Positions 1-40,849 of a stretch of 64,000 nucleotides of DNA are shown here, in pieces. This DNA comes from Candidatus Lumbricidiphila eiseniae. GTDB lineage: Bacteria; Actinomycetota; Actinomycetes; Actinomycetales; Microbacteriaceae. Below the pieces are notes generated by a model. The model ran no database searches, was not told the origin of the DNA, and was given only the letters and a program-made list of their open reading frames with translations. Where the stretch lies: the NCBI GenBank assembly GCA_002529645.1, contig NAEP01000017.1, forward strand, positions 1 to 64,000, written 5' to 3'. Within the stretch, counting starts at the first letter, position 1; each line of letters opens with the position of its first letter. Both the position numbers and the translations under genes were made by a program.

Positions 1-2686
1 CCGCCGCCGCGTTCGCACGAGAATCCGCCCCCGCCGACGCCGACGCCGACGCATTCGCACTCGAGGTAGTCGCCGCATCCGAGGACGCCACCGTCACCGC
101 AGCAGCCCCCGACGGAGTCGGAGTCGGAGTCGGAGTCGGCCTCCCAACTGCAATCACCGACACCCAACTCGACCAGCTGTGGGCGACGTATACGGTGCTC
201 CCATCCGGAGTAACCGCCACCCCGAACGGCCAGCTGTCGACGGTAATGGTTTTGGTGACCGTCCCGGTGACCGTATCAATCACCGACACCAAACCCGGAC
301 CCGAACCACTGTGGGTAACGTATACGGTACTCCCATCCGGAGTAACCGCCACCATGAACGGGTACGCGCCGACGGTAATCGTTTTGGCGACTGCCCCGGT
401 GACCGTATCAATCACCGACACCAAACCCGAACCCGAACCACCGTGGCTAACGTATACGGCGCTCCCATCCGGAGTAACCGCCACCCCGTACGGGCCCGAG
501 CCGACGGTAATGGTTTTGGTGACTGTCCCGGTGGCCGTATCAATCTTCGACACCGAACTCGACCGGCTGTTGGCGACGTATACGGTACTCCCGTCCGGAG
601 TAACCGCCACCCCGGACGGAAGCGAGCCGACGGTAATGGTTTTGGTGACTGTCCCGGTGACCGTATCAATCACCGACACCGAACCCGACGTATAGTTGAC
701 GACGTATACGGTACTCCCATCCGGAGTAACCGCCACCCCGTACGGACCCGAGCCGACGGTAATGGTTTTGGTGACTGTCCCGGTGGCCGTATCAATCCTC
801 GGCACCGAATTCGACCTGCTGTTGACGACGTATACGGTACTCCCATCCGGAGTAACCGCCACCGCGAGCGGGTACGGGCCAACGGTAATGGTATTGGTGA
901 CGGTGTCTTTATCGCCGAGACGCGAGGATGACGCAGTTACAACAGCACCCGACGCGGTCCCGGCCGCGTTCGTGCCCGAGGAACGATCCGCGTTCGAGGA
1001 GGCCTGCGCCGCAGCAACCGCAGCCGCGTTCGCCGCGGTCGCAGACGTCGCCGACGCATCCGTGGACGCGACCGTCACCGCCGCCGCCCGAGACGCCGCG
1101 ACCGCGGACCCGGTCGCAGCCGCGGACCCAACAGAACTACGATCCCCGTTCGCTGCCGCGACCGCAGCCGCGTTCGCGTGAGAATCCGCCGACGCGGACG
1201 AGGACGCCGACGCGTTCGCCGCCGAGGTCGTCGACGCATCCGAAGACGCCACCGTTACCGCCGCACCCGACGCCGCCGCCGTCGCCGCAGTCGTACCCAC
1301 CGCAGACCCAGCCGCGTTCGTGCCCGAGGAACGATCCGCGTTCGAGGAGGCCTGCGCCGCAGCAACCGCAGCCGCGTTCGCCGCGGTCGCAGAGGTCGCC
1401 GACGCATCCGTGGACGCGACCGTCACCGCCGCCGCCCGAGACGCCGCGACCGCGGACCCGGTCGCAGCCGCGGACCCAACAGAACTACGATCCCCGTTCG
1501 CTGCCGCGACCGCAGCCGCGTTCGCGTGAGAATCCGCCGACGCGGACGAGGACGCCGACGCGTTCGCCGCCGAGGTACTAGACGCGTCCGTAACAGCAGC
1601 ACCCGGCGTCGAAGTTGGTGTCGGTCGTGACGCCCCAATTACCGACACCAAACCCGACACGCTGCTGGTGACGTATACGGCGCTCCCATCCGGAGCAACC
1701 GCCATCCCGATCAAGCCCGAGTCGACGGCAATGGTTTTGGTGACTGTCCCGGTAGCCGTATCAATCACCGACACCGAACCTAACCCGCCGTTGATGACGT
1801 ACACGGCGCTCCCATCCGGAGTAACCGTCACCCCGACCGGGCCCAAGCCGACGGCAATGGTTTTGGTGACTGTCCCGGTAGCCGTATCAATCACCGACAC
1901 CGAATCCGACCTGTTGTTGACGACGTATACAGCGCTCCCATCCGGAGTAACCGCCACCCCGAGCGGGTACGGGCCGACGGCAATGGTTTGGGTCACTGTC
2001 CCGGTAGCCGTGTCAATCTTCGACACCGAACCCGACGACATGTTGTTGGCGACGTATACAGCGCTCCCATCCGGAGTAATCGCCACCCCGCGCGGGTACG
2101 AGCCGACGGTAATGGTTTGGGTCACTGTCCCGGTAGCCGTGTCAATCTTCGACACCGAACCCGACAGGCTGTTGACGACGTATACAGCACTCCCATCCGG
2201 AGTAACCACCACCCAGTACGGAAGCGAGCCGACGGTAATGGTTTGGGTCACTGTCCCGGTAGCCGTGTCAATCTTCGACACCGAACCCGACCCGCTGTTG
2301 ACGACGTATACAGCACTCCCATCCGGAGTAACCACCACTCCGGCCGGGTACGAGCCGACGGTAATGGTTTGGGTCACTGTCCCGGTAGCCGTATCAATCT
2401 TCGACACCGAACCCGAATTGTAGTTGGTGACGTATGCGGTGTTCCCATCCGGTGTAAAGGCCACCCCGTACGGGCTCGTGCCGGCGGTAATGGTTTTGGT
2501 GACGGTGTCGTTATCGCCGAGACGCGAGGATAGAGCCGTCGGCACGCTCACACCGTTCTGGCCGGGTGCAGCAGCAGCGGTCATATTTGCGTTCATCGGC
2601 ACCACCCCGACTGTTGTCAACACTGCCGCCGCAATCATGACGATAACTATCCCCGCACGACGATGACCTCTGTCCAATACCCTCAT
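1..2686 (-). CDS. Large secreted YVTN beta-propeller repeat protein (partial, open at left edge)
   Basis: Reading frame open from the ATG at 2686 to the window edge (at least 895 residues, no stop). Residues 1-35 form a signal peptide with basic residues and a hydrophobic core (IVIVMIAAAVLTTVGVV). Then come seven repeats of about 42 residues of the type TVTQTITVG-P-GVVVTPDGSAVYVVNSGSGSVSKIDTATG, the YVTN-type beta-propeller repeat, over 2500-1640. An Ala/Ser/Thr-rich linker follows (1635-930), then six more repeats (930-180), then a Thr-Pro run and another Ala-rich linker running off the edge. YVTN proteins are usually cell-surface or exported proteins; the ligand is unknown. The ATG overlaps the stop of the upstream gene (ATGA), suggesting coupled translation. 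A C-terminal anchor cannot be seen because the gene is cut. The opposite strand also has long open frames here, but these are shadows of the repeats. Confidence 0.85.
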   Translation of the reverse strand, partial: MRVLDRGHRRAGIVIVMIAAAVLTTVGVVPMNANMTAAAAPGQNGVSVPTALSSRLGDNDTVTKTITAGTSPYGVAFTPDGNTAYVTNYNSGSVSKIDTATGTVTQTITVGSYPAGVVVTPDGSAVYVVNSGSGSVSKIDTATGTVTQTITVGSLPYWVVVTPDGSAVYVVNSLSGSVSKIDTATGTVTQTITVGSYPRGVAITPDGSAVYVANNMSSGSVSKIDTATGTVTQTIAVGPYPLGVAVTPDGSAVYVVNNRSDSVSVIDTATGTVTKTIAVGLGPVGVTVTPDGSAVYVINGGLGSVSVIDTATGTVTKTIAVDSGLIGMAVAPDGSAVYVTSSVSGLVSVIGASRPTPTSTPGAAVTDASSTSAANASASSSASADSHANAAAVAAANGDRSSVGSAAATGSAVAASRAAAVTVASTDASATSATAANAAAVAAAQASSNADRSSGTNAAGSAVGTTAATAAASGAAVTVASSDASTTSAANASASSSASADSHANAAAVAAANGDRSSVGSAAATGSAVAASRAAAVTVASTDASATSATAANAAAVAAAQASSNADRSSGTNAAGTASGAVVTASSSRLGDKDTVTNTITVGPYPLAVAVTPDGSTVYVVNSRSNSVPRIDTATGTVTKTITVGSGPYGVAVTPDGSTVYVVNYTSGSVSVIDTVTGTVTKTITVGSLPSGVAVTPDGSTVYVANSRSSSVSKIDTATGTVTKTITVGSGPYGVAVTPDGSAVYVSHGGSGSGLVSVIDTVTGAVAKTITVGAYPFMVAVTPDGSTVYVTHSGSGPGLVSVIDTVTGTVTKTITVDSWPFGVAVTPDGSTVYVAHSWSSWVSVIAVGRPTPTPTPTPSGAAAVTVASSDAATTSSANASASASAGADSRANAAA
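963..1576. repeat. Tandem duplication of an Ala-rich linker-coding unit (266 bp, 348-bp period)
   Basis: Bases 963-1228 and 1311-1576 are almost identical (I see one difference, near 1048/1396) at an offset of 348 bp, which is 116 codons, so the frame of the YVTN protein is kept. A related, more diverged piece is present at about 1-110. The repeats encode an Ala/Ser/Asp-rich linker between the two beta-propeller blocks. Such near-perfect duplication suggests recent unequal recombination and possible length variation between strains. Confidence 0.85.
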
Positions 2687-3735: not shown

Positions 3736-3824
3736 CTCGGCCCCTCAACCCGCTGAACACCTAGACGGATGCCTCGCTCACGGATCGCGGTCAGGCTCGG
3801 CCCCCTCGGCCCGCTGAACACCTA
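3736..3824. repeat. Degenerate 28/29-bp direct repeat pair around 32 bp
   Basis: Bases 3736-3763 and 3796-3824 share CTCGGCCCC at the left and CCCGCTGAACACCTA at the right (15-bp perfect match offset by 61 bp), with two substitutions and a one-base indel between. The intervening segment is 3764-3795 (32 bp). The spacing is close to the two clean 28/33 units at 29647 and 40761. Confidence 0.55.
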
Positions 3825-29646: not shown

Positions 29647-29735
29647 CGATCATCCCGGCCAACGATGCCACGGCTTCGGAGGCTTCAATGGTGCTTCAGC
29701 TTCGTACCGATCATCCCGGCCAACGATGCTACGGC
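29647..29735. repeat. 28-bp direct repeat pair flanking exactly 33 bp (61-bp period)
   Basis: Copies at 29647-29674 and 29708-29735 begin CGATCATCCCGGCC and end ACGGC, with 27 of 28 identical. Homology stops sharply on both sides. The segment between them (29675-29707) is exactly 33 bp and unrelated. It lies between the convergent pknB and pabA genes. On the minus strand the repeat ends GGGATGATCG and the spacer begins with G. The 28/33/28 dimensions are those of a type I-E CRISPR unit, but there are only two repeats and no cas genes in the window. Confidence 0.8.
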
Positions 29736-29767
29736 GCTCCCGCGACCCGCACACCCGGTGCTCGAAG

Positions 29768-30400
29768 CTACGCGAGCAACGGCTTGAGGAAAGCGGCTCG
29801 TTCTTGTGCACCCGGAAGGCCAGCGGTCGCTAGCCAGTTTCCAAGCAGCTGATATCCCCCCTCTGTCAGCACGGATTCGGGATGGAACTGAACGCCGTAG
29901 ATGGGGGCCGAGACGTGCTGCACCCCCATGATCACACCGCCGACTGTACGGCTGGTTACTCGGAGTGAACCGGGCACCGTATCAGACACAATGGCCAGTG
30001 AATGATATCGGGTCGCCCGGAACTCGGTGGGCACTCCCTCGTAAAGCGGGCTGCCATCGTGTAGCACCTGTGAGGTCTTGCCGTGCATGAGCTCTTCCGC
30101 GCCGGTAACCACGGCACCGAAGGCCTCCGCAATCGCCTGGTGCCCGAGGCACACTCCCAGCAGCGGAATCTCGGTTGCCAGCGCAACCCGAACGGCTTCG
30201 ATCGATATACCAGCGTCTGCGGGTGCACCCGGTCCCGGTGAGAGCAGCACCGCATCGTAGTTTGCGAGGTACTCCGGAAGCGCATCAGCGGCCACCGCGT
30301 CATTGCGAATGACATCGGTGGTCGCACCCAGTTCTTGCAGATACCCGTTCAGGGTGTAAACAAAGCTGTCATAGTTGTCAACGACCAAAACACGGGTCAT
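29768..30400 (-). CDS. pabA: Glutamine amidotransferase of aminodeoxychorismate/anthranilate synthase (PabA/TrpG)
   Basis: 210 residues, a class I glutamine amidotransferase. It releases ammonia from glutamine for the partner synthase in folate or tryptophan synthesis. Motifs: oxyanion LLSPGPGAPADAG near residue 52, nucleophile LGVCLGHQAIAEAFG (Cys near 82), and catalytic His-Glu in VQFHPESVLT near 172. Its place next to crgA and pknB matches trpG (Rv0013) of mycobacteria. Start ATG overlaps the stop of the upstream 52-aa gene. Confidence 0.93.
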   Translation of the reverse strand: MTRVLVVDNYDSFVYTLNGYLQELGATTDVIRNDAVAADALPEYLANYDAVLLSPGPGAPADAGISIEAVRVALATEIPLLGVCLGHQAIAEAFGAVVTGAEELMHGKTSQVLHDGSPLYEGVPTEFRATRYHSLAIVSDTVPGSLRVTSRTVGGVIMGVQHVSAPIYGVQFHPESVLTEGGYQLLGNWLATAGLPGAQERAAFLKPLLA

Positions 30401-30555
30401 TCGGGTACCGTCACGCTCAATGGATTGATGATGCTATCGACCCAGGGGTATACCCAGGTGAAAAGCGCGTACGCCACGGCAAGGACGAGAATGAGCACGA
30501 GAACAGCGCGTATCCACCACGGTCCGGGCAAGATCCGCCAGAGTGCACCGTACAT
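30397..30555 (-). CDS. Small single-span membrane protein (52 aa)
   Basis: Short gene between sortase and pabA: ATG at 30555, TGA at 30397-30399 overlapping the pabA ATG (ATGA). The protein begins MYGALWRILPGPWW and has one membrane segment (IRAVLVLILVLAVAYALFTWVYPW) and a short outside tail ending VTVPE. The gap to the sortase stop is three bases, so the three genes form one transcript. A small membrane protein in this position is common in related actinobacteria. No function is known to me. Confidence 0.8.
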   Translation of the reverse strand: MYGALWRILPGPWWIRAVLVLILVLAVAYALFTWVYPWVDSIINPLSVTVPE

Positions 30556-30558
30556 GGC

Positions 30559-31386
30559 CTATTTCCCCCACTTCGCGACGTCGGCAGCGATCTCGGGCGG
30601 CGGGTTTCCGGCACCGGGTCGGAATGATTCATACGTTCCGTAGGCGGCGATCCGCTCCGCCGTTGAGTACAGCGGGTTGCAGGTGGTCAGAGTGATGAGC
30701 CTATCCGTTGTAGCTTTCGTTGAGACCCTCGGAATCGCGTCGAGCACATCCGTTGCCGTCGGGGTGACATACTCAAGGTTGCGGAACCGGTACGTAAACC
30801 AGCCATCCTTCGTTTCAATGTAGATAGGGTCGCCGACCTGGAACTGGTCGATCAGGTGCATGCCACCACCATACGCTGACCGGTGAGCAGCAACCGCAAA
30901 GTTGCCGACCGCACCGGGCATTTGTGTCGAGGGGTAGTGTCCGACGCCCATCTTGAAACTGTTTAGCACATCCATGCCGTACCCCTGCGCAATATTGCGC
31001 TGGGTTCCAGCACCGAATCGTGGCACGTACATGATCGCAAAGACTTCGGCATTGTCATAGGTTTTAGTGTCGACCACCGGCTCAGCCGGAGTTGCGGGAG
31101 CGTTCGGAGCCGGACTGGCAGTTGACGGTGCAGTGGATGGCTCGGGGCTCGTCTTGATGGCCCACTGTGCGTTCTGGTCGGCAGCGGCCGAGGACTGTCC
31201 CTTTGCCAGAATCGCGTCGTTCCACCACAGTTGCCACCCAAGGAACAGGAGTACCAGGATACCGGCGGTGATGAACAGCTCCCCACACACACCAACCACG
31301 GTCACTCGGCCCCGCGCCCGTCGTCGAGCACGGTTTCGGCTTCTGTCCCGCGGTCGCAGTGGAAGCTCATCCTGCGGCGCAGTCAT
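30559..31386 (-). CDS. Class E sortase
   Basis: 275 residues. Basic N-terminus, membrane span (VCGELFITAGILVLLFLGWQLWW), Ser/Pro/Ala-rich stalk (about 70-110) and the sortase barrel. Catalytic residues are visible: His in VAAHRSAYGG near 167, Cys in LITLTTCNPLY near 231, and Arg in AERIAAYG near 241. Class E enzymes anchor surface proteins bearing LAXTG-type signals to peptidoglycan. No such substrate is visible in the window, though the YVTN protein's C-terminus lies off the edge. Leads a coupled unit with the 52-aa gene and pabA. Confidence 0.92.
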   Translation of the reverse strand: MTAPQDELPLRPRDRSRNRARRRARGRVTVVGVCGELFITAGILVLLFLGWQLWWNDAILAKGQSSAAADQNAQWAIKTSPEPSTAPSTASPAPNAPATPAEPVVDTKTYDNAEVFAIMYVPRFGAGTQRNIAQGYGMDVLNSFKMGVGHYPSTQMPGAVGNFAVAAHRSAYGGGMHLIDQFQVGDPIYIETKDGWFTYRFRNLEYVTPTATDVLDAIPRVSTKATTDRLITLTTCNPLYSTAERIAAYGTYESFRPGAGNPPPEIAADVAKWGK

Positions 31387-31477
31387 GGAGTCAATCCTAC
31401 TCGAATCGTCATATGGTCTAGGCTTCGTTGGACGTGCCGCGATCGGTGCACGCAGGTGCCTCGGCTAGAATCGGCGC

Positions 31478-31717
31478 ATGGCACGTAGCAAATCGGTAAG
31501 AACCGAACCCGTCAAGGCTGTGAGCGGCGAGGCGGCGCCTAATCCGGTGTGGTTTAAGCCGGTGATGCTTGGGTTCATGCTCCTGGGACTGCTCTGGATC
31601 ATTGTCTTTTACATCAGTGGTTCGGTGTGGCCGATCGAGAGTCTCGGCCAGTGGAACATCCTCGTTGGTTTTGGCATCATGCTGATTGGCTTCCTCATGA
31701 CAACCCGGTGGCGCTGA
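31478..31717 (+). CDS. crgA: Cell division protein CrgA
   Basis: 79 residues with two membrane spans and the CrgA pattern NPVWFKPVMLGFMLLGLLWIIVFYISG...WNILVGFGIMLIGFLMTTRWR. CrgA coordinates septal peptidoglycan synthesis in actinobacteria by contacting FtsZ, FtsI and other divisome proteins. Its neighbourhood (sortase, pabA, pknB on one side; rhomboid and ppiA on the other) is conserved. ATG at 31478 fits family length. Confidence 0.95.
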   Translation: MARSKSVRTEPVKAVSGEAAPNPVWFKPVMLGFMLLGLLWIIVFYISGSVWPIESLGQWNILVGFGIMLIGFLMTTRWR

Positions 31718-31748
31718 TCGCCTCGCCGGGGCACGCTGCCTGACCCCA

Positions 31749-31872
31749 CAGCCCGAAGTGCACACTCGAGCCCACAGCCCGAGGTGCACGCTCGACCCCG
31801 CAGCCCGAGGTACACGCGACCCCCACGACAAGCCCTCGCGGGGCCATCCACAACCCCTCGCGGGGCCATCCA
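31749..31872. repeat. Two short tandem repeats downstream of crgA
   Basis: CAGCCCGA(A/G)GT begins at 31749, 31775 and 31801, an exact 26-bp period in three diverging copies. It is followed by CCCTCGCGGGGCCATCCA at 31833-31850 and 31855-31872 (22-bp period). A perfect 12-bp palindrome TACACCGGTGTA lies at 31878-31889. No gene is seen in this 210-bp gap. Confidence 0.75.
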
Positions 31873-31911
31873 ATAACTACACCGGTGTAATTCTCCCCAT
31901 GTGGAAAGTCC

Positions 31912-31920
31912 TGTGGATAA
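31912..31920 (-). other. Perfect DnaA box
   Basis: TTATCCACA on the minus strand between crgA and the rhomboid gene. A weaker second site (CTTTCCACA, 7 of 9) lies about 12 bases away near 31900. Too few boxes for an origin, but the gene neighbourhood is oriC-proximal in actinobacteria, so a DnaA-titration or regulatory site is possible. Confidence 0.45.
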
Positions 31921-31928
31921 CCAGCGGG

Positions 31929-32798
31929 CTAGCCAAGACCCAGTGGCCCGACCGGGAAAACGAAGTATCTCAGGCTCAGCACGATCAACACGAGCGTGAG
32001 CCCCGTCATCAGCCAGGGCTGTAACCGCTGTCGGTGGTTTGCGCGAGTTTCCACCAGGATCAGCCCCAACAGCAGTCCGGTCAGGAGTCCGCCGACGTGG
32101 GCCTGCCAAGAAATGGTGGGCACAAAAAATCCGAGGGCAAGGTTGATCCCCACCAGCACAAGCAGTTGCACAGTCGGACCACCGAGCCGTCGCTGGATAA
32201 CAAGCAGCGCGCCCATCACACCAAACAGGGCACCGGATGCCCCGACCACCGCACCGTTGCCCAGCTCACTGAACCACAGCACACCCACCGAGCCACCGAG
32301 CCCAGCAATGAAGTAGAGGGCGAGGAACCGCCAGCGACCAAGCATCGGTTCAAGCATTCGCCCCAGCACAAGCAGTGTGTACATGTTGAGGAGGACGTGA
32401 AAAATAAGGCTCGAATGCACAAACAGCACCGTGAGCATTCGCCACGGTTCAGAATAGGCCGGGGTTGAATAAGCCGGTTCGTAGTAGAGCAGCTCCGTCA
32501 CCCTGAGCACCGGAACCAATTGCAGCAGGTACATCACGACCGTGATAGCAATGATCGCGTACGTCACAACGGGGGCATCGCTGGCTTCGGCCCGTCGACG
32601 CCACCTCGTCACGAGACTCGGGCGGGTTATCCCGGTTTTGCGCTGGCCTTGAATGCACGAAGGACAGATGACACCCACCGGGGCGGGTGTCTGGCACTCG
32701 CCGCACACCGTTTGTCCACACCGCTGACACAGCACAAAACTCTGTCGCTGCGCGTGACGGTAACAAAAATTGACGCGATCGTGTGCGAGGTCGGCCAT
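31929..32798 (-). CDS. Rhomboid-family intramembrane serine protease with N-terminal zinc finger
   Basis: 289 residues. N-terminal B-box-like zinc-binding region with CYRHAQRQS, LCQRCGQTVCGEC and VICPSC (residues 12-50). Then about six membrane segments carry the rhomboid signature HVLLNMYTLLVLGR, active-site GASGALFGVMGAL (Ser near 190) and the catalytic His in QAHVGGLLTGLLLG near 243. It cleaves membrane-spanning substrates within the bilayer. Conserved position beside ppiA and crgA. Confidence 0.94.
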   Translation of the reverse strand: MADLAHDRVNFCYRHAQRQSFVLCQRCGQTVCGECQTPAPVGVICPSCIQGQRKTGITRPSLVTRWRRRAEASDAPVVTYAIIAITVVMYLLQLVPVLRVTELLYYEPAYSTPAYSEPWRMLTVLFVHSSLIFHVLLNMYTLLVLGRMLEPMLGRWRFLALYFIAGLGGSVGVLWFSELGNGAVVGASGALFGVMGALLVIQRRLGGPTVQLLVLVGINLALGFFVPTISWQAHVGGLLTGLLLGLILVETRANHRQRLQPWLMTGLTLVLIVLSLRYFVFPVGPLGLG

Positions 32799-32807
32799 GA
32801 TGGGCCG

Positions 32808-33347
32808 CTACTGCGTCGCGATAGCGATGTTGTGGATGACCACGTCTGTAAGCGGGCGATCCTGTCCCCCCGTCGGCACCGCGGCAATGGCGTCAACAAC
32901 GGCCTGGCTCTCAGCCCCCACAACCCGCCCAAAAATCGTGTGTTTTCCCTGCAACCATGTCGTGGCCCCCACCGTAATGAAAAACTGTGAACCGTTGGTA
33001 CCGCGGCCACCACGGGTTCCCGCATTAGCCATCGCCAACACATAGGGCCCCGTGAAGTCCAGTTCCGGGCTAATCTCATCGTCAAACTGATAACCCGGCC
33101 CGCCGGTTCCGGATCCCAGTGGGTCTCCCCCCTGAATCATGAATCCCGGGATGATCCGGTGGAAGACGGTGTCCGAATAGAGCGGTGCGCTCGATGTCGC
33201 GCCCGATTCCGGGTGGGTCCACTCGAGTGTTCCCGAGGCCAAACCGATAAAATTCTTCACCGTCTTTGGAGCGTGATGACCGTAGAGCTCGACGGAGATT
33301 GGTCCGTGATTGGTCACAATGGTGGCGTGGGCGGTCGCGATGGGCAT
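32808..33347 (-). CDS. ppiA: Cyclophilin-type peptidyl-prolyl cis-trans isomerase
   Basis: 179 residues from the ATG at 33347. The frame is open to a start at 33431, but family members begin (M)PIATAHATIVTNHGPISVELYGHHAPKTV. Cyclophilin core: FHRIIPGFMIQGGDPLGSGTGGPGY (catalytic Arg and Gln-Gly-Gly), MANAGTRGGRGTNGSQFFIT and the Trp segment TTWLQGKHTIFGRVV. No signal peptide, so cytosolic (Rv0009-like). Neither start has a strong ribosome site. Nine bases separate it from the rhomboid gene downstream. Confidence 0.93.
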   Translation of the reverse strand: MPIATAHATIVTNHGPISVELYGHHAPKTVKNFIGLASGTLEWTHPESGATSSAPLYSDTVFHRIIPGFMIQGGDPLGSGTGGPGYQFDDEISPELDFTGPYVLAMANAGTRGGRGTNGSQFFITVGATTWLQGKHTIFGRVVGAESQAVVDAIAAVPTGGQDRPLTDVVIHNIAIATQ

Positions 33348-33466
33348 GGTCGCTATTGTTTCACGAGCAACAGACAACCCGGTGGCAGGCTCACGGTAAA
33401 CCCACGCTCGGTCGCCCACTTTCGATGGCATGATGGATGTAGTTCACCGCGTCCCTGGAGGTCACC

Positions 33467-33988
33467 ATGAGCCTGTCACGAAGCCAACGGAAAGAACTGC
33501 AGGAACTGCGCGACAGCGCCGGGGAACTGTGGTCGAATCAGCAAATCGTGCTGGAGCACGCTGGGGCGGTTGCCTCTGCAGCTGGCCGTCAGCTGAGGGC
33601 CTTGGCTCAACAGGAAGTTGTACCCCGGGTGCGCACCGGCTTCGACACCTATGTCCGACCCGGCCTGGGTCAGGCTGGCCGAGCGGCGCACGTCGTGGGC
33701 GAGGGTGTCGAGCAAACCGTTGGCAGGGTGATCGGGGCGGCCATGTCGATCGGTGATATTGCACAGGATGCCCGTGTGCAGCGGGCTGTTCGGCGCTTCG
33801 CGCCACGGGCTGTCACCGTTGCCCCGCCCGCGAAAAAGAAAAGTTCCGGGGCCGGAGCGTTCCTTGCCGTGAGCGCAGGGCTCATTGCTGCGGCCGGAGT
33901 GGCCTACGCCATCTGGCAGACCTTCCGTGCCGACGATGAACTCTGGGTGGAAGACGATACCACCGACCCGACTTCTTCTGACAGTTAG
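33467..33988 (+). CDS. Conserved actinobacterial membrane protein (173 aa)
   Basis: ATG at 33467 with a strong GGAGG site. A long helical, amphipathic region (residues 1-115) is followed by a Lys-rich stretch (PPAKKKSSG), one membrane span (GAFLAVSAGLIAAAGVAYAIWQTF) and an acidic tail (DDELWVEDDTTDPTSSDS). Homologues are common next to ppiA in Micrococcales and are sometimes mislabelled as DNA helicase; nothing here supports that. Function unknown. Confidence 0.8.
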   Translation: MSLSRSQRKELQELRDSAGELWSNQQIVLEHAGAVASAAGRQLRALAQQEVVPRVRTGFDTYVRPGLGQAGRAAHVVGEGVEQTVGRVIGAAMSIGDIAQDARVQRAVRRFAPRAVTVAPPAKKKSSGAGAFLAVSAGLIAAAGVAYAIWQTFRADDELWVEDDTTDPTSSDS

Positions 33989-34046
33989 ATGTACTCGGCC
34001 ATAGGGATTGGTGACACTCGGAAACAAACCACCCGCCAACCGCCAA

Positions 34047-34088
34047 CCGACTGCCGACTGCCGACTGCCGACTGCCGACTGCCGACTG
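34047..34088. repeat. Heptanucleotide microsatellite (CCGACTG)6
   Basis: Six perfect tandem copies of CCGACTG with no interruption, just after two related CCGCCAA units. It lies in the 210-bp gap before the broken Fic gene. A copy number that can slip makes this a candidate variable locus, but no gene reads through it. Confidence 0.9.
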
Positions 34089-34207
34089 CCACCAAACTCA
34101 TGGCCGAGTGCACCAGGGGAGTCGCGTTCGGCCGATCATGGATCCGAACGCTGACATAGATCTTCACCCCCGCCCGTGTGATGTTGATGAGATGAGGAGT
34201 GAAGGCC

Positions 34208-34789
34208 ATGAGCGACGGTCGTACCCGGCACCTCACCGTCTTGGATCTGGCGGGAGTCGTGTGTTCATCGGGCAAGGTCTTCGACGGATTAGCGACCGGA
34301 AGGCTCGATACGGAGAACTTTCTGCGCTCGGGCAGTCTGGACGGGGTGACCTCGCGTTCGGATCTTGCCCTGCGCGAGGATCTGCGGGATCTCGCTCAGT
34401 TCGTCGTCGACAGTGTCGGCACGCCCATCACTGCAGCGTATGTTCGTGCGGTAAACGCGAAGATCACGCGCAGCGGTGCGCTGCATCCCGGGCAGCTACG
34501 GACGGCAGATCAGGGGATTGGCGTGCAGACGCGGTACGGGTGTCATGAGCCCGCGGTGCTCTCAGACACGGGGCTGCAGCGATTGTTCGATGAGTCGATC
34601 CGAGGCGATGATGTCCTCGACGATGCGCTGAGCCTCTTCGTGACACTCGCCAGGGCGCAGCTCAGTCTCTCGACCGGACCACGGAGGCGAAAGAACCGAA
34701 GGAGACGGTGCCGGATCGGCATCATGCTGAGCCTGCTGCCGAGACCTCGTCTCAGGCGACTCGCATCTACGTGCGCTTCCCGGAGCTGA
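34208..34789 (+). pseudogene. Truncated Fic-domain protein gene
   Basis: ATG at 34208 with AGGAG eight bases upstream. The protein follows Fic proteins over the pre-catalytic part: AYVRAVNAKITRSGALHPGQLRTADQGIGVQTRYGCHEPAVLSD, then DDVLDDALSLFVTLARAQ. In intact relatives the next residues are the active-site HPFxDGNxR-type motif. Here the frame runs instead into Arg-rich nonsense (LSLSTGPRRRKNRRRR) from about 34660, so the AMP-transferase centre is lost. A second frame (ending TAA at 34855-34857) then shows coding-like residues (YVRFPELNPKNRPNPER), probably the tail of another gene joined by deletion. Confidence 0.6.
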
Positions 34790-34837
34790 ACCCGAAGAAC
34801 AGGCCAAACCCCGAGCGCGATCCACCGGGACCGCCCT

Positions 34838-34924
34838 CGCCGGACCCCGAGCGCTAAACGATCCTCCGAACTCAAGAGCAACTGCCAATCGGCCCGGCGC
34901 CGGGCCCCGAGCACTGAACGATCC
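34838..34924. repeat. Degenerate ~27-bp direct repeat pair around 33 bp
   Basis: Bases 34838-34864 and 34898-34924 match at 24 of 27 positions (CGCCGG, CCCCGAGC, AACGATCC shared) and flank 33 unrelated bases. The period is 60. Similar in layout to the clean 28/33 units elsewhere in the window. The 5' copy overlaps the end of the coding-like tail after the Fic remnant, so it may partly be coding DNA. Confidence 0.5.
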
Positions 34925-34990
34925 GCGGCAATCCCATCACGACCAGGACCGCTTGGTCTATCGCAGTGCAAGCACCGCTGTGCCGTCGCG

Positions 34991-35431
34991 TCACAATCGG
35001 ATGCGCCCGTCAGCGGGTTCTGTCTCGTGTAGTCGAAGCGCAATATCAACGAGACTGACCCGGTGCAGTGTCGGCACCTCCGCGAGCGAAAACCACCGTG
35101 CCTCATCGCTTGAGCCGTGCTTTTCATGCTGCAGTGACCCGCCCACAGTGTGTGCCCGATACACAACACGCAGCGCATAGAGCGGTCCCCGACCGGTTGG
35201 TCGATGTGCGGCTGCGATGATCATGGTGTCCACGCCGAGCAACCGGTCAACCACCGACTCAAAGCCGGTTTCTTCCCGGATCTCCCGCACCGCCGCGTCG
35301 ATGGGATGCTCCTCACCCTCGATCCCACCGCCGGGCAACGACCAACCACTACGACCGTGCTCATTCCAGTGGGCGAGCAGAATGTGGTCATCCCGAACTA
35401 TCACCCCGTACGCTGCGATTCGAATGTCCAC
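34991..35431 (-). CDS. NUDIX hydrolase
   Basis: 146 residues. Full Nudix box GGGIEGEEHPIDAAVREIREETGFE (residues 31-55), which binds metal and cleaves nucleoside diphosphate-linked substrates. N-terminal strand IRIAAYGVIVRDDHILLAHW is typical. Substrate unknown; general nucleotide-sugar or oxidised-nucleotide clean-up is possible. It stands alone between the Fic remnant and the cytochrome b gene. Confidence 0.9.
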   Translation of the reverse strand: MDIRIAAYGVIVRDDHILLAHWNEHGRSGWSLPGGGIEGEEHPIDAAVREIREETGFESVVDRLLGVDTMIIAAAHRPTGRGPLYALRVVYRAHTVGGSLQHEKHGSSDEARWFSLAEVPTLHRVSLVDIALRLHETEPADGRIRL

Positions 35432-35561
35432 CCAGTCACCCTAACCGCACAACACGGTTGGCGGCTATCTGCGCCGCACCGCTAAAGACCGTGGTGGGCT
35501 GGGCCGATGTGTCATACCGTTGCGCGTCACAGACCGCTCACCCGGCATCCGCACTATCGTC

Positions 35562-35610
35562 GTCTCATCGCCCTGCGTTGACACAACACCGGGGCACATA
35601 ACGATGAGAC
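35562..35610. promoter_or_regulatory. Inverted repeat upstream of the cytochrome b gene
   Basis: GTCTCATCG (35562-35570) and CGATGAGAC (35602-35610) form perfect 9-bp arms 31 bases apart, 25-73 bases before the ATG at 35635. It could be a looped operator; no regulator is recognised. Confidence 0.35.
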
Positions 35611-35634
35611 CGCGCCCTCGAAAGGATCAACTGG

Positions 35635-36558
35635 ATGGACCAGCGCACCCCACGGCTACCTCAATCACTGCGTGTTCGGGTTGCCGCCGCCGCTATTGGT
35701 TCCCTCGTCGCCGTGACCGTCGCCGTGGTTCTTGCACAGTGGCTCCGCCGCATCCCGGCAATTCATGTCTTCATCGCAGCATACCCGGGTGTTATCGGCC
35801 ACGACCAGGGAACACCGATCGGAACCCCACCGTGGCTAGCATGGCAGCATTTTCTCAATACACTTTTCCTCGTCCTCATTGTGCGCACCGGACTGCAGCT
35901 GCACTCCAAAAAACGACCACCCAGTTTCTGGACTCGTGACAACACTCGCTGGCCTCGCACTGCACGGCCGCCGCGCCGACTCAGCATCTATCTGTGGTGC
36001 CACCTGTGGGTCGATGCGCTGTGGATCATGAACGGGATCATCTATATTGTTCTGCTTGTCATCACCGGCCAGTGGCGAGTGCTGGTGCCCACCGACTGGT
36101 CAGTGGTTCCTCATGCGGTGTCTGTTGCCCTGCAGTACGCCTCACTCGATTGGCCGCTCGAAAACGCATGGGTGGGATACAACGCACTACAGCAGATCCT
36201 CTACACCACGGTGGTCTTTATCGCGGCACCACTGGCGATCCTCACCGGCCTGCGACTCTCTCCCGCCTGGCCCACCGGTGGATGGCTCGCCCGTCCCCTG
36301 TCCGAACGAATGGCGCGCGCCATCCACTACCCGGTTTTGCTGTTCTTTATCGGATTCACAATCGTCCATGTCGGACTCGTGCTGACAACCGGAATGTTCC
36401 GCAACCTCAATCAGATGTACGCTGCGCGCGAGTCCGCTGATGCGGTCGGGTTTATCGTCTGTGCCATCGCGGTGGCCGTGCTGGCCGTTGCGTGGGTTGT
36501 CACGAAGCCCGGACTTCTCAAGCGCATAGCAGCCACAACGGGCAAAGTTCAGGGGTAG
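35635..36558 (+). CDS. Cytochrome b/b561-type integral membrane protein
   Basis: 307 residues, ATG with GAAAGGA upstream. About six membrane segments. Candidate haem-ligating histidines are WQHFLNT (near 63), LWCHLWVDALW (near 123), AIHYPVLL (near 225) and TIVHVGLVL (near 243). The pattern resembles the membrane cytochrome b subunit that pairs with SoxC/YedY-like molybdopterin oxidoreductases, but no molybdopterin enzyme gene is next to it. Electron donor and acceptor are therefore unknown. Confidence 0.75.
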   Translation: MDQRTPRLPQSLRVRVAAAAIGSLVAVTVAVVLAQWLRRIPAIHVFIAAYPGVIGHDQGTPIGTPPWLAWQHFLNTLFLVLIVRTGLQLHSKKRPPSFWTRDNTRWPRTARPPRRLSIYLWCHLWVDALWIMNGIIYIVLLVITGQWRVLVPTDWSVVPHAVSVALQYASLDWPLENAWVGYNALQQILYTTVVFIAAPLAILTGLRLSPAWPTGGWLARPLSERMARAIHYPVLLFFIGFTIVHVGLVLTTGMFRNLNQMYAARESADAVGFIVCAIAVAVLAVAWVVTKPGLLKRIAATTGKVQG

Positions 36559-36659
36559 CGACGATGTGCCCGGCTCGGGGTTTCGTGTGATCAACCTCAT
36601 TCAGACGGCAGCGGGGAACGGTCGCGGTGGTTAGTGTGGCCCCACCTGTGCGTCCAGCC

Positions 36660-37931
36660 TCACTCAGACAGCGGCGGAACCGTTCGTGGGCGTATCACCA
36701 ACCACACCGACAGGGTCGCGAGGCAAGCGCAGAGGAACATGACCCCCGCCATCGGCGACGCGTCTGTTGTTCCCAGCGTGCCGAGAATTGGTCCGACAAT
36801 GCCCGCGAGGCCAAAGTTCGCGGCACCGAGAATCGAGGAGGCGGTTCCCGCTTCGGCTCCGTGATGAGCAAGGGCCAATACCTGAACGGCGGGAAATGCG
36901 AACCCGCACGCGCAGATGAGAAACCAGAGCGGGATGGCCGTTCCCCAGTAACCGGCACCCGTATGATCGAATACAAAAATGGCAACCGCAGCCAGAATCT
37001 GCACAACTGTTGTTCCCGCGAGGATCCACTGGGGCTGTGCCCTCGTGCGCATTAGCCACGAACTAACCTGCACACCCGCGACAACACCGACCGAATTCAT
37101 CCCAAATGCGAGGCCATATTGTTGCGGCGTGAAGTGGTACACGTCTTGAAAAAGGAACGACGATGTGGACAAATAGGCAAAGAGGCCGGTAAAATTCAAG
37201 GCTCCCACGACAACGGCACCGATAAATATTCGGTCATGAAAAAGAACGCGGAAACGAGAAGCGAGTGAGGATGTCGCAACCTGCCGATCCAGTTTGGGCA
37301 GGGTTTCCACAATCATCAATACGGTTGCAATAGCGACGACAAGACCGTATCCCGAAAGAACCCAGAACACACCCCGCCAGTCGGTGATTCGAAGCAACTG
37401 GGAACCAATCAGCGGGGCAAGAATTGGTGCCGAACCGTTGACAAGCGAGAGCCGCGAAAGCATTTTGACGAGCGGTTTTCCACCAAACAGGTCTCGCACG
37501 AGCGCCATCGTCACAACACCACCGGCGGCGGCACCGAATCCCACGAGTAGACGAAACACCGTGAGCCAGGTGATGTCTGGCGACAGCGCCGCACCGACCG
37601 ACGCGGCAACGTGAAGCAGGCACGACACAATCAGGGGCAGGCGGCGGCCCACCCTGTCGCTCCACGGTCCGACAATCAGTTGGCCGGCCGCGAATCCAAT
37701 GACGGTACCGGTGAGGGTGAGCTGGATTGCCGTTTCGGTTACACCGAGGTCAACCTGCAGTGCGGGAAACGCAGGCAAGTAAAGGTCGATCGTGAACGGA
37801 CCGAGTGCCGTCAGCGCGCCGAGCACAAACACGTAGATGAGTCGTTGTTGTCGGCTGAGCAGATCTCCGGGGTGGGACGGCTGGTTGTAGTCGTCCGGTT
37901 GAACGATAGGGATGGGGCTTGTGAACGTCAC
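36660..37931 (-). CDS. Bcr/CflA-family multidrug efflux MFS transporter
   Basis: 423 residues with 12 membrane spans. N-terminal LGALTALGPFTIDLYLPAFPALQVDLGVTE and the MFS loop GPWSDRVGRRLPL, with motif C-like LVGFGAAAGGVV, are characteristic of Bcr/CflA proton-driven exporters (DHA1 group). These export drugs such as bicyclomycin, or sulfonamides. The actual substrate cannot be read. The gene is single and convergent with cytochrome b. Confidence 0.9.
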   Translation of the reverse strand: MTFTSPIPIVQPDDYNQPSHPGDLLSRQQRLIYVFVLGALTALGPFTIDLYLPAFPALQVDLGVTETAIQLTLTGTVIGFAAGQLIVGPWSDRVGRRLPLIVSCLLHVAASVGAALSPDITWLTVFRLLVGFGAAAGGVVTMALVRDLFGGKPLVKMLSRLSLVNGSAPILAPLIGSQLLRITDWRGVFWVLSGYGLVVAIATVLMIVETLPKLDRQVATSSLASRFRVLFHDRIFIGAVVVGALNFTGLFAYLSTSSFLFQDVYHFTPQQYGLAFGMNSVGVVAGVQVSSWLMRTRAQPQWILAGTTVVQILAAVAIFVFDHTGAGYWGTAIPLWFLICACGFAFPAVQVLALAHHGAEAGTASSILGAANFGLAGIVGPILGTLGTTDASPMAGVMFLCACLATLSVWLVIRPRTVPPLSE

Positions 37932-38813
37932 GCTAGTTCCTGGTCAGCTAGAAAGTGGGGCACAGTCTCACGCGGTCTCGACACGGTGGATCGCCGACAC
38001 CAACCAAAACGGGCATCCTCGCCGGGATGATTCACGCCCACCAGTGTGGGGATCACGAATTTTGGTCGTGGTAAATCCTACTCACAGAACTGGCACAGCG
38101 CTCGGTATCACACCAAAATTCGGTATTAGGGTCAAGAAAATCGTCGACATGGGGTTTGCGTGTGAGGGTTGGGGAAAGTGGGTGAGGGTTTTCATCGGAA
38201 TTCTACCCAGGGATCCTCAATGTTCGGCGAGAGCACGAGTGGTCTCGCCGTGAGACAGTAACCGTAGGCAACGAGAGTGGATGCGGCCGTCGTGAGGGTT
38301 TCTTGGATGGCTGTCTCCGACTGTGAGCGCAGTGCAAGAGAATAATCGTAATGCGAACAGAGAATGTGTGTGAGATTGTTCATAGTTCTGTCGGAGACAG
38401 CTCAACTTGACACTTCTGGAAAAAGCACTGATCTTTTCGTCAGAGATCCTAAAATAGCTAGTCAGCCAATCGTTATCATCATCACGTATCGTTCCAGAAA
38501 ACTAATATTACATCCCTTATTTTCACCGGTGGTTGAGCGCCTCCAAAACCACCAATCTTGAGCACACTGATAGTTGCTATAATTCTCAAATAGAACGTAA
38601 TATACGACCGTATCACCAGCACGACAATATCTTACCTGCGATAAAAGTTTGCTCGATTTCCAGGCTGAATACTGCACAAAATGAGCATTGATCTCACTGT
38701 CTTTCTGAGTTCTGTAAAGTGCCAGCACCCGCCTCTAAGGCACTAGACTTTCCATACCCATCCCTACCTTCACATTGATTTGTAGGGGTTGCTCTCACCA
38801 GTGACGTACCCCG
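37932..38813. other. 880-bp gene-poor stretch, AT-rich in its right half
   Basis: No convincing gene. From about 38330 to 38760 the DNA is markedly richer in A+T than the surroundings. Short open frames exist on the minus strand at 38192-38383 (63 aa) and 38462-38728 (88 aa), but neither has a ribosome site. A perfect inverted repeat GAATTTTGGT (38057-38066) and ACCAAAATTC (38112-38121) is present. A hairpin GTGACG/CGTCAC at 38801-38817 overlaps the stop of the ABC exporter gene and may end its transcript. Confidence 0.6.
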
Positions 38814-40715
38814 TCACCTGAGGCTGCTGTTATCACCCCGTTCCTGCTGTCGATACAACGAGGTGTACAAACCGTCTGCGCGCAACAACTCTTCGTGCGT
38901 ACCCCGCTCCACAATCCGCCCCTCATGGAGAACGAAAATCACATCCGCCGACACCACTGTTGAGAGCCGATGCGCGACCGCTATGGTCGTACGACCGCGC
39001 GCCGCGTCATCAAGCGCCCGCTGCACAATCCGCTCCGAGATTGTGTCCAGCGCGCTCGTTGCCTCGTCGAGAATGAGCAATTCTGGGTCTTTCAGCAACA
39101 CTCGCGCAATCGCGACGCGCTGCTTTTCACCGCCCGAAAGCCGGTGCCCTCGCTCCCCCACAATCGTCCCCAGGCCCTCCGGCAGCTTCGCAATAAAGTC
39201 GTGCAGATTGGCCGAGCGAACGGCCGCCATTAACTCCTCTTCGCTGGCATCGGGGCGAGCGTATCGCAGGTTGTCACGAATGCTTGCGTGAAACAGATAC
39301 GTCTCCTGCGTCACAATTCCAATCCGATCAACAAGCGATTCCCGCGTGAACTCCCGCACGTCAATACCCCCGCAGGTGATAGTGCCCGTAGTCGCCTCAT
39401 ACAGTCGCGGCACCAGTTGCACGATGGTCGATTTGCCCGCACCGCTTGGCCCGACAAACGCCGCGAATTGCCCTGGCTCTACCGAGAAGCTCACCTCCGT
39501 GAGTGTTGCCGGAGCATCCGGTGCCACACTCGGGTAGCGAAACCAGACACCGTCGAACCGGATGCGCCCGAGCGGCGCAGTTGTCGCGAGCGAGCGAGCG
39601 AGCGGGGCATCCACAATCGCGGGCACGAGGTCAAGGTACTCAAAGATTCGCGCAAACAGGGCACGGGATGTCTGCAGATCCAACGCCACCCGCATGAGCG
39701 CAATGAGTGGGAACAGCAACCGTGCCTGCACGGTCGTGAAAGCCACGATCGTTCCTGCCGAGACGGGAGCGGCGTGAGACAGGATGACAAGTCCGGCGAT
39801 GAGGTAGACAATTGCCGGAATGGCGGACATAAAGACACTCACCATGGCGAAGAACCACTGCCCGGTCATCTGTTGCCGCACCTGCAGCTGAATCTGATTG
39901 GCATTTTCCCCTGCATACCGCTCAATCTCACTCGCCTGCCGATTGAAACTCTTCGCAAGAAGGATGCCCGAAATTGACAGCGTCTCCTGGGTGATCGCCG
40001 ACATTTCGGACAGTGACTCTTGAGTTTTTGTGGCGATCCGTGCTCGCACCTGTCCCACTCGTCGCTGCGCAATCACCATAAACGGCATAAAAATCACCGC
40101 AATAATTGTGAGCTGCCAGTTGAGAATAACCATCGCAATTCCCGCTGATAACACCTGAACGGTATTACCCACCACGCTGGAGACAGTGTTGGTGACCACG
40201 TTCGCAACACCACCAACGTCGTTTTGTAGTCGAGACTGGATAACTCCGGTGCGAGTGTGGGTAAAGAAGTTTAGTTCCATCGACTGCAGCCGGGTAAAGA
40301 GCCGAACCCGCAGGCTTCCCATCACCCTGTTACCAATCGTTGCGGTCAGCCAGGTCTGCCACACTCCGAGCAGCGCCGAGACGAGGTAGACCACAATCAT
40401 GATGATGACAAGCTCGCTCAGCACAGAAAAGTTGGGAGGCTCACTCGAACCGGTCGCCGTGTGGGGGAAGAGTCCCTCGTCGAATGCGCGCTGAATGAGC
40501 AACGGGGGCACAATGGCGAGCGCGGCCGTCACGATAACGAGCAGCATCGTGACGGTGAGCCCCACCCGGAAAGGCGCAAACAGTTCCATGATCCGGCGGA
40601 GAAGAAAGGGAATTTCTGGTGCCTCGGCGTTCGCCGCACGCTGGGCCGTCACATCTCCCGATGCAACCCGGGTGCGGCTCTTTCCGTGCTGGCCAACCTG
40701 CCTCGTCATGCTCAT
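38814..40715 (-). CDS. ABC exporter, fused membrane and ATPase domains
   Basis: 633 residues. Six membrane spans over residues 55-350, then a nucleotide-binding domain: Walker A GPSGAGKST near 417, signature LSGGEKQRVAIARVLL near 522, Walker B LLILDEATSALD near 545, His in VAHRL. Homodimeric lipid/drug exporters of the MsbA/LmrA type have this form. The N-terminus carries a 25-residue basic extension. Substrate unknown. It is divergent from xylA across a 280-bp gap holding the 28-bp repeat pair. Confidence 0.93.
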   Translation of the reverse strand: MSMTRQVGQHGKSRTRVASGDVTAQRAANAEAPEIPFLLRRIMELFAPFRVGLTVTMLLVIVTAALAIVPPLLIQRAFDEGLFPHTATGSSEPPNFSVLSELVIIMIVVYLVSALLGVWQTWLTATIGNRVMGSLRVRLFTRLQSMELNFFTHTRTGVIQSRLQNDVGGVANVVTNTVSSVVGNTVQVLSAGIAMVILNWQLTIIAVIFMPFMVIAQRRVGQVRARIATKTQESLSEMSAITQETLSISGILLAKSFNRQASEIERYAGENANQIQLQVRQQMTGQWFFAMVSVFMSAIPAIVYLIAGLVILSHAAPVSAGTIVAFTTVQARLLFPLIALMRVALDLQTSRALFARIFEYLDLVPAIVDAPLARSLATTAPLGRIRFDGVWFRYPSVAPDAPATLTEVSFSVEPGQFAAFVGPSGAGKSTIVQLVPRLYEATTGTITCGGIDVREFTRESLVDRIGIVTQETYLFHASIRDNLRYARPDASEEELMAAVRSANLHDFIAKLPEGLGTIVGERGHRLSGGEKQRVAIARVLLKDPELLILDEATSALDTISERIVQRALDDAARGRTTIAVAHRLSTVVSADVIFVLHEGRIVERGTHEELLRADGLYTSLYRQQERGDNSSLR

Positions 40716-40760
40716 AGCGACACCTTAGAGGACGGGTATACGCGGGCACACAGCGACACC

Positions 40761-40849
40761 GCTCGCTGAGAGTTCGCAGGGACTGCACGATCGTTTCATG
40801 GCGATGCCCAAGCCCGATTTGGCTCGCTGAGAGTTCGCAGGGACTGCAC
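40761..40849. repeat. Perfect 28-bp direct repeat pair flanking exactly 33 bp (61-bp period)
   Basis: Copies at 40761-40788 and 40822-40849 are identical over all 28 bases (begin GCTCGCTGAGAG, end GGGACTGCAC). The bases on either side differ at once. Between them lie exactly 33 unrelated bases (40789-40821, beginning with G). The site is in the gap between the ABC exporter and xylA. Same dimensions as the pair at 29647, but unrelated sequence. Confidence 0.9.

Follow-up and report, generated by a model that had tools for sequence, protein, structure and literature searches.

What process could have left, at two unrelated places between genes, direct repeats of 28 bp that enclose exactly 33 bp? 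The question is raised by a 64,000-nucleotide stretch of Candidatus Lumbricidiphila eiseniae (Microbacteriaceae; GenBank assembly GCA_002529645.1, contig NAEP01000017.1, positions 1 to 64,000), which we call the window. The original prediction, made from the letters of the window, read two such units as footprints of a type I-E system of clustered regularly interspaced short palindromic repeats (CRISPR) whose Cas1-Cas2 integrase had placed spacers outside any array. Our analysis supports that idea: spacings of this size are in excess across the sampled half of the genome, which also encodes cas1e and cas2e next to an array of period 61. The units are almost certainly scars left by the host's own type I-E Cas1-Cas2 when it integrated spacers off target.

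Within the window, both repeat pairs are as described, each with a 33-bp insert, a 61-bp period and homology that stops sharply at base 28. When repeats were scored with +1 for a match and -3 for a mismatch over positions 2701-64000, sites 1 and 2 were the sole non-tandem direct repeats with a score of at least 17 at spacings of 20-200 bp; the other five repeats at that threshold are head-to-tail tandems with spacings of 21-36. The claim that chance direct repeats are unlikely also held, since 60 shuffles of the same region yielded no pair with a score of 20 at repeat-to-repeat distances (d) of 60-62, the best shuffled score there being 14. The window does contain only two clean sites, but they are not its only units: a lower-threshold scan found two further, partly decayed ones at 3736-3824 and 34838-34924, and at the former, by our reading, a 1-bp indel and two substitutions separate the copies. 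All four sites lie outside genes called by a simple codon-usage caller, in keeping with the intergenic location proposed for the first two. The features are as follows.

29647..29674, unstranded: site 1, first copy of the 28-bp target duplication (direct-repeat scan)
29675..29707, unstranded: site 1, 33-bp insert, a 31/33 copy of C5:12881-12913 of the same genome, the source being flanked by AA
29708..29735, unstranded: site 1, second copy of the target duplication, 27/28 identical to the first
40761..40788, unstranded: site 2, first copy of the 28-bp target duplication (direct-repeat scan)
40789..40821, unstranded: site 2, 33-bp insert, no self copy with up to 3 mismatches
40822..40849, unstranded: site 2, second copy of the target duplication, 28/28 identical to the first
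3736..3763, unstranded: site 3, first copy of the target duplication, decayed (lower-threshold scan)
3764..3795, unstranded: site 3, insert; a 35-nt stretch including the insert edges equals C8:6180-6214 (L054), where AA precedes the source
3796..3824, unstranded: site 3, second copy of the target duplication (lower-threshold scan)
34838..34864, unstranded: site 4, first copy of the 27-bp target duplication (lower-threshold scan)
34865..34897, unstranded: site 4, 33-bp insert, no self copy with up to 3 mismatches
34898..34924, unstranded: site 4, second copy of the target duplication, 24/27 identical to the first (a 27/33/27 unit)

The host genome comprises 2,847,834 bases in 73 contigs and is 97.4% complete; its G+C content and the relatives of its Cas1 make it probably actinobacterial. 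Genome-wide counts rest on 1,371,395 of these bases, or 48%, and leave out the two CRISPR arrays, window positions below 2700, where tandem repeats lie, and pairs in which the copy reaches at least 75% of the spacing. An excess of the 61-bp spacing, sought across this sample, was present: at a score of at least 18 we counted 41, 93 and 17 pairs at d = 60, 61 and 62, and the commonest other single spacing was 126 bp, with 12 pairs. Over d = 59-63 there are 161 units, which fall into 134 sites when grouped at 130 bp (115 with one unit, 15 with two, 2 with three, and one each with four and six). Scaling from the sample, we estimate that the whole genome holds about 330. The same scan of 400 kb from four congeners that lack Cas1 gave a single pair at each of d = 60, 61 and 62, no higher than at other spacings.

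The density also stands out among relatives that do carry the integrase. In 800 kb from 23 genomes, drawn from 60 other Cas1e genomes found in the order, three pairs occurred at d = 59-63 with a score of at least 18; two of them look like low-complexity repeats and one has the 28/33 anatomy. Unit density is thus about 30-fold higher here by the raw count of d = 59-63 pairs and about 90-fold higher by matching anatomy, ratios that depend on few events elsewhere. Around 80 Cas1e loci of named genomes (1.49 Mb, selected from 242 loci) there are 20 isolated pairs at d = 58-64, and by eye most of these show a canonical-looking CRISPR palindrome; those at L106, L115 and L152 do not. The single pair of matching anatomy in the 800 kb is a lone 28/33/28 unit, 27/28 identical and off-target-like in appearance, at L275:11856-11944 in one of these Cas1e genomes (G321).

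A type I-E system, for whose cas genes the genome was searched, is present and apparently complete. Cas1e (TIGR03638, 334.7 bits against a cut-off of 215.6) and Cas2e (TIGR01873, 64.7 bits against 33.15) adjoin an array of 70 repeats with period 61, and Cas3, Cse1, Cse2, Cas7, Cas5e and Cas6e are encoded a few kilobases away. Like the two integrase subunits, Cse1, Cse2, Cas7 and Cas5e exceed their profile cut-offs; Cas3 is represented by a core domain, and the Cas6e match is below its cut-off. Because the canonical repeat, ATCCGCCCCGCACATGCGGGGGTGAACC, is 28 bp long and the spacer intervals measure 33 bp in 66 of 69 cases, the scars have the same dimensions as the array of the host itself. Among 60 genomes of the genus, only this one gave a Cas1 match, and the G+C content of its stretches is 60.6%, compared with 70.7% in stretches of the four congeners. 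The array has peculiarities of its own. At L008:13575-13728 (G000 C67) the leader and repeat form two identical 77-nt tandem copies, and therefore the first array interval consists of 49 nt of leader. Identical spacers occur far apart, at L008:13834 and 15788, and two others are similar to each other, of the type CTGCCCCAACTG. A small second array with a related repeat (L030:7838-7990) overlaps the cas6e reading frame.

The inserts proved to be informative about their origin. At E<=1e-4, 69 of the 161 match another place in the sampled part of the genome, and reversed inserts, used as a control, gave no match in 161. Since these matches come from 48% of the genome, we estimate that self DNA gave rise to about 70-90% of all inserts, provided that the sample is representative. 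The homology to the source usually stops sharply at the insert edges, with some exceptions. Setting aside one low-complexity case leaves 68 source alignments, and 52 of these sources lie inside called genes, similar to the coding fraction of 75%. For 41 inserts of 32-33 bp, with 82 source ends, the motif 5'-AA directly adjoins 18 of these ends, compared with 0-6 at ten other offsets (p=2.7e-9), and among 57 inserts with homology-defined ends it occurs at exactly one source end in 27. The protospacer-adjacent motif for which the sources were checked is present as an enrichment of AA, which is partial and not universal. Within the window, a source sought for the site 1 insert was found in the same genome, with AA beside it, and the site 3 insert matches its source over 35 of 35 nt. 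With up to three mismatches, the inserts of sites 2 and 4 have no other copy in their own genome; that of site 2 also had no match in a phage collection, no exact match in IMG/VR, and a weak 22-nt match in plasmids. One insert, at L068:15470, resembles by eye a fragment of a tRNA gene.

Among the units, the commonest classes of copy and insert length are 28/33 (39 units), 29/32 (17) and 27/33 (15). In 36 of the 68 source alignments the matched block is exactly 33 nt, and in 57 it is 31-36 nt; among those 57, the implied duplication is mostly 27-29 bp. A nearly fixed insert with a slightly variable target would fit the ruler of Cas1-Cas2 acting on imperfect targets. The targets themselves share a motif. 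When one clean unit from each of 101 sites was aligned, with the alignment seeded from the CRISPR repeat and left to find the orientation, the motif reached 5.64 bits over 28 positions, whereas 40 sets of random intergenic 30-mers, given equal fitting rounds, had a mean of 2.96 and a maximum of 3.35 bits. Earlier controls had fewer fitting rounds, and the repeat with equal rounds agrees with them. The strongest columns are C at position 8 (77 of 101) and G at position 21 (74 of 101), which mirror each other within the inverted repeat of the CRISPR repeat.

A site before insertion can be glimpsed in one gene. The sarcosine oxidase alpha-subunit gene SoxA (L189:13813-16794, minus strand; identified by Pfam) contains a d = 60 unit with a 28/28 duplication and, 60 bp further, a third, decayed copy of the target that is 22/28 identical to the first as aligned. 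The protein carries three successive FVPH segments. In three SoxA homologues, which belong to other families of the order, exactly 40 residues are missing at this place, the equivalent of two in-frame 60-bp units; the homologues therefore look like the SoxA target in its state prior to insertion. No convincing source for either SoxA insert was found in the sample. Elsewhere, adjacent units share a repeat at 17 of the 134 sites, from which it follows that a duplicated target was used again. The largest such neo-array, at L063:752-1144, consists of seven repeats that are nearly identical and six inserts; for four of the inserts, the sample contains a source elsewhere. Judged from its sequence, the neo-array has the form expected of a CRISPR array at birth. 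RecG was considered as a further coding site and rejected: most relatives match the protein only from about residue 110, and therefore the unit is probably upstream of the true start.

The scars are unevenly distributed and differ in age. At d = 60-62 there are 151 units: 111 entirely between genes, 28 partly coding and 12 wholly coding, whereas random segments divide as 22%, 8% and 70%. The intergenic share could be too high, because the caller may miss a gene that a unit has broken. Most scars presumably survive between genes because a 61-bp insertion breaks a reading frame, and those that remain are likely to be mostly neutral. Of 119 clean duplications, 57 are identical, 44 have one difference and 18 have two, the score limit admitting no more than two. 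Mean divergence is similar for the two parts of a unit, at 1.9% per base between duplications and 1.6% between inserts and sources (46 units).

These observations can be assembled into a mechanism. Cas1-Cas2 would capture prespacers of about 33 bp, mostly from the host chromosome and with a preference for a neighbouring AA, and would insert them into chromosomal sequence that resembles the CRISPR repeat. The target of about 28 bp would be duplicated on insertion, as in the canonical array, and some duplicated targets would then be used again to give neo-CRISPR arrays of up to seven repeats. The sequence itself shows the anatomy of the units, the motif of their targets, the copies of inserts at their sources, the enrichment of AA, an empty site at one locus, the growth of arrays and the depletion of units from genes; that the host Cas1-Cas2 made the scars is what we infer from this. 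We further think it fairly probable that adaptation in this lineage lost its strict choice of target, resulting in a chronic, genome-wide micro-transposition of self DNA of about 33 bp that seeds and grows arrays and occasionally adds in-frame protein segments, with scars that are mostly probably never read as guides.

Several results weigh against this account. As a control, flanking 33-mers 100 bp upstream of the inserts also match elsewhere in 13 of 161 cases. For the inserts of sites 2 and 4, half of those in the window, the search of their own genome gave no source, and 11 of the 68 source blocks fall outside 31-36 nt, at 25-30, 38 or 40 nt. AA at exactly one end is lacking in 30 of the 57 source-matched inserts, and among 27 oriented units the orientation by AA agrees with that by repeat similarity in 16 and disagrees in 9, which is not a significant excess (p=0.27). 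The palindromy of the targets is close to that of one control set (5.32 versus 5.15 pairs), and with no clear excess the targets therefore resemble the motif of the repeat but not its full hairpin. The decay of duplications and that of inserts are not significantly correlated (rho 0.20, p=0.18). Finally, the evidence for an empty target comes from one coding locus, compared with protein homologues, in the 48% of the genome that was read.

How, then, do other explanations fare? An integrase of another kind, or a miniature transposon with a target duplication of about 28 bp, would produce a similar arrangement, as a duplicated target around an insert is transposon-like. But the source-matched inserts copy many different loci, with no common ends visible by eye in the alignments of the 69, the unit sizes equal those of the host array, AA is common to inserts and canonical spacers, and the targets resemble the CRISPR repeat. 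We know of no transposon of such size, and consider this origin highly improbable. Equally hard to credit is the view that the units are remnants of dispersed, degraded old arrays instead of new integrations. It could appeal to a copy of the canonical repeat on a prophage contig and to the small second array that overlaps the cas6e reading frame. Against this, the repeats differ from site to site, with a mean match to the canonical repeat of 11.7/28 in a set of 75 units; the SoxA homologues carry the target without an insertion; and self DNA makes up most of the inserts but only a minority of the canonical spacers. Least credible of all, and to be set aside, is a chance agreement in spacing among ordinary local direct repeats, products of slippage or tandem duplications that have diverged: although tandem repeats do exist in this genome, the peak is confined to 60-62 bp, is absent from the Cas1-less congeners and from the window shuffles, and involves middle segments that, where the source is known, copy a distant locus and usually have sharp ends.

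The canonical array can be compared with these inserts. Six of its 69 spacers match the sampled genome at E<=1e-4. Four of these (spacers 44, 51, 53 and 67) match genes on C11 of a prophage with head, tail, lysis and integrase genes (L031:1-11188, G000 C11), and all four have AA in the same register as the sources of off-target inserts; two are perfect matches. These four matches represent tolerated self-targeting. AA is present for four of the five canonical spacers examined, the exception being the leader-proximal spacer 1, which matches C4:71863-71896 at 32/33 positions without AA. Spacer 2, also leader-proximal, matches C9 (L185:3463-3488) over 25/26 nt. The simplest reading is that self spacers would be harmful, and lost, within the array and harmless outside it, because unrelated repeats would not be processed into guides. 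This reading is complicated by the perfect, AA-flanked prophage spacers and by the two newest array spacers, which are apparently self-derived; interference by the host system may therefore be weak, blocked or recently lost. A single match of the canonical array to phages, in a Saccharomonospora phage, was rejected, as it consists of several pieces and is probably repeat-driven. Beside the prophage integrase gene lies a one-spacer mini-array with host-like CRISPR palindromes 61 bp apart (L031:10160-10250), which is possibly phage-borne.

As for the surroundings in the window, site 1 is neighboured by a Ser/Thr kinase with PASTA repeats and a class-I glutamine amidotransferase, and site 2 by an ABC transporter and a protein with a xylose-isomerase-like barrel. 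A 123-bp query from site 1, run against the 60 genomes of the genus (this one included), gave three short matches outside its own genome, none with the unit; at the two original sites the congeners do not align. Window positions 53-2551 hold long stretches of 126-bp repeats.

Casposon integration likewise uses a Cas1-family integrase and duplicates its target. The inserts here differ in that they are fragments of about 33 bp from many loci and not one element; casposon genes were not searched for. Another related process is the 'neo-CRISPR' integration by the E. coli type I-E Cas1-Cas2 that Nivala, Shipman and Church reportedly described in Nature Microbiology in 2018, mostly as experimental events, together with a few putative natural cases said to be from Yersinia pestis and Sulfolobus islandicus. 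Those events reportedly share with ours a repeat-length target duplication, a spacer-length insert and targets that resemble the native CRISPR locus. In contrast, the 161 units that we count are natural and come from 48% of a single genome. Most of them are self-derived, and they differ in age; some have grown into neo-arrays with as many as seven repeats, and a protein has gained an in-frame insertion. To our knowledge, off-target integration has so far been seen mostly in experiments, and among the matches listed by a literature search, with subscription papers mostly outside its reach, none reported a genome densely marked by natural off-target integration. The density, the self origin and the growing neo-arrays thus appear to be new.

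The difference in density from other genomes calls for an explanation. In E. coli, IHF confers specificity for the leader, and Cas1-Cas2 alone integrates outside the array in vitro, according to a review (PMC10011333). Integration outside the array is common to that reaction, as described there, and to our genome, in which natural scars have accumulated. Units are so much denser here than in the Cas1e genomes sampled from the order that a concrete difference in specificity suggests itself; loose target choice would account for the density, perhaps through a missing or weak leader-recognition factor.

The units constitute a natural record, graded in age, of the choice of targets and prespacers outside the selection that acts on arrays, and include apparent intermediates in the birth of new CRISPR arrays. 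If the micro-transposition reading is true, the scars are a natural archive of what Cas1-Cas2 captures when the filter of immune selection is removed. It thereby becomes possible to test in what proportions adaptation free of selection draws on self and on foreign DNA, and by what route new arrays originate. The scars also suggest that, over long periods, a CRISPR integrase can be a mutagen, one that has added DNA to its host's genome (about 20 kb by extrapolation) and has even altered a protein.

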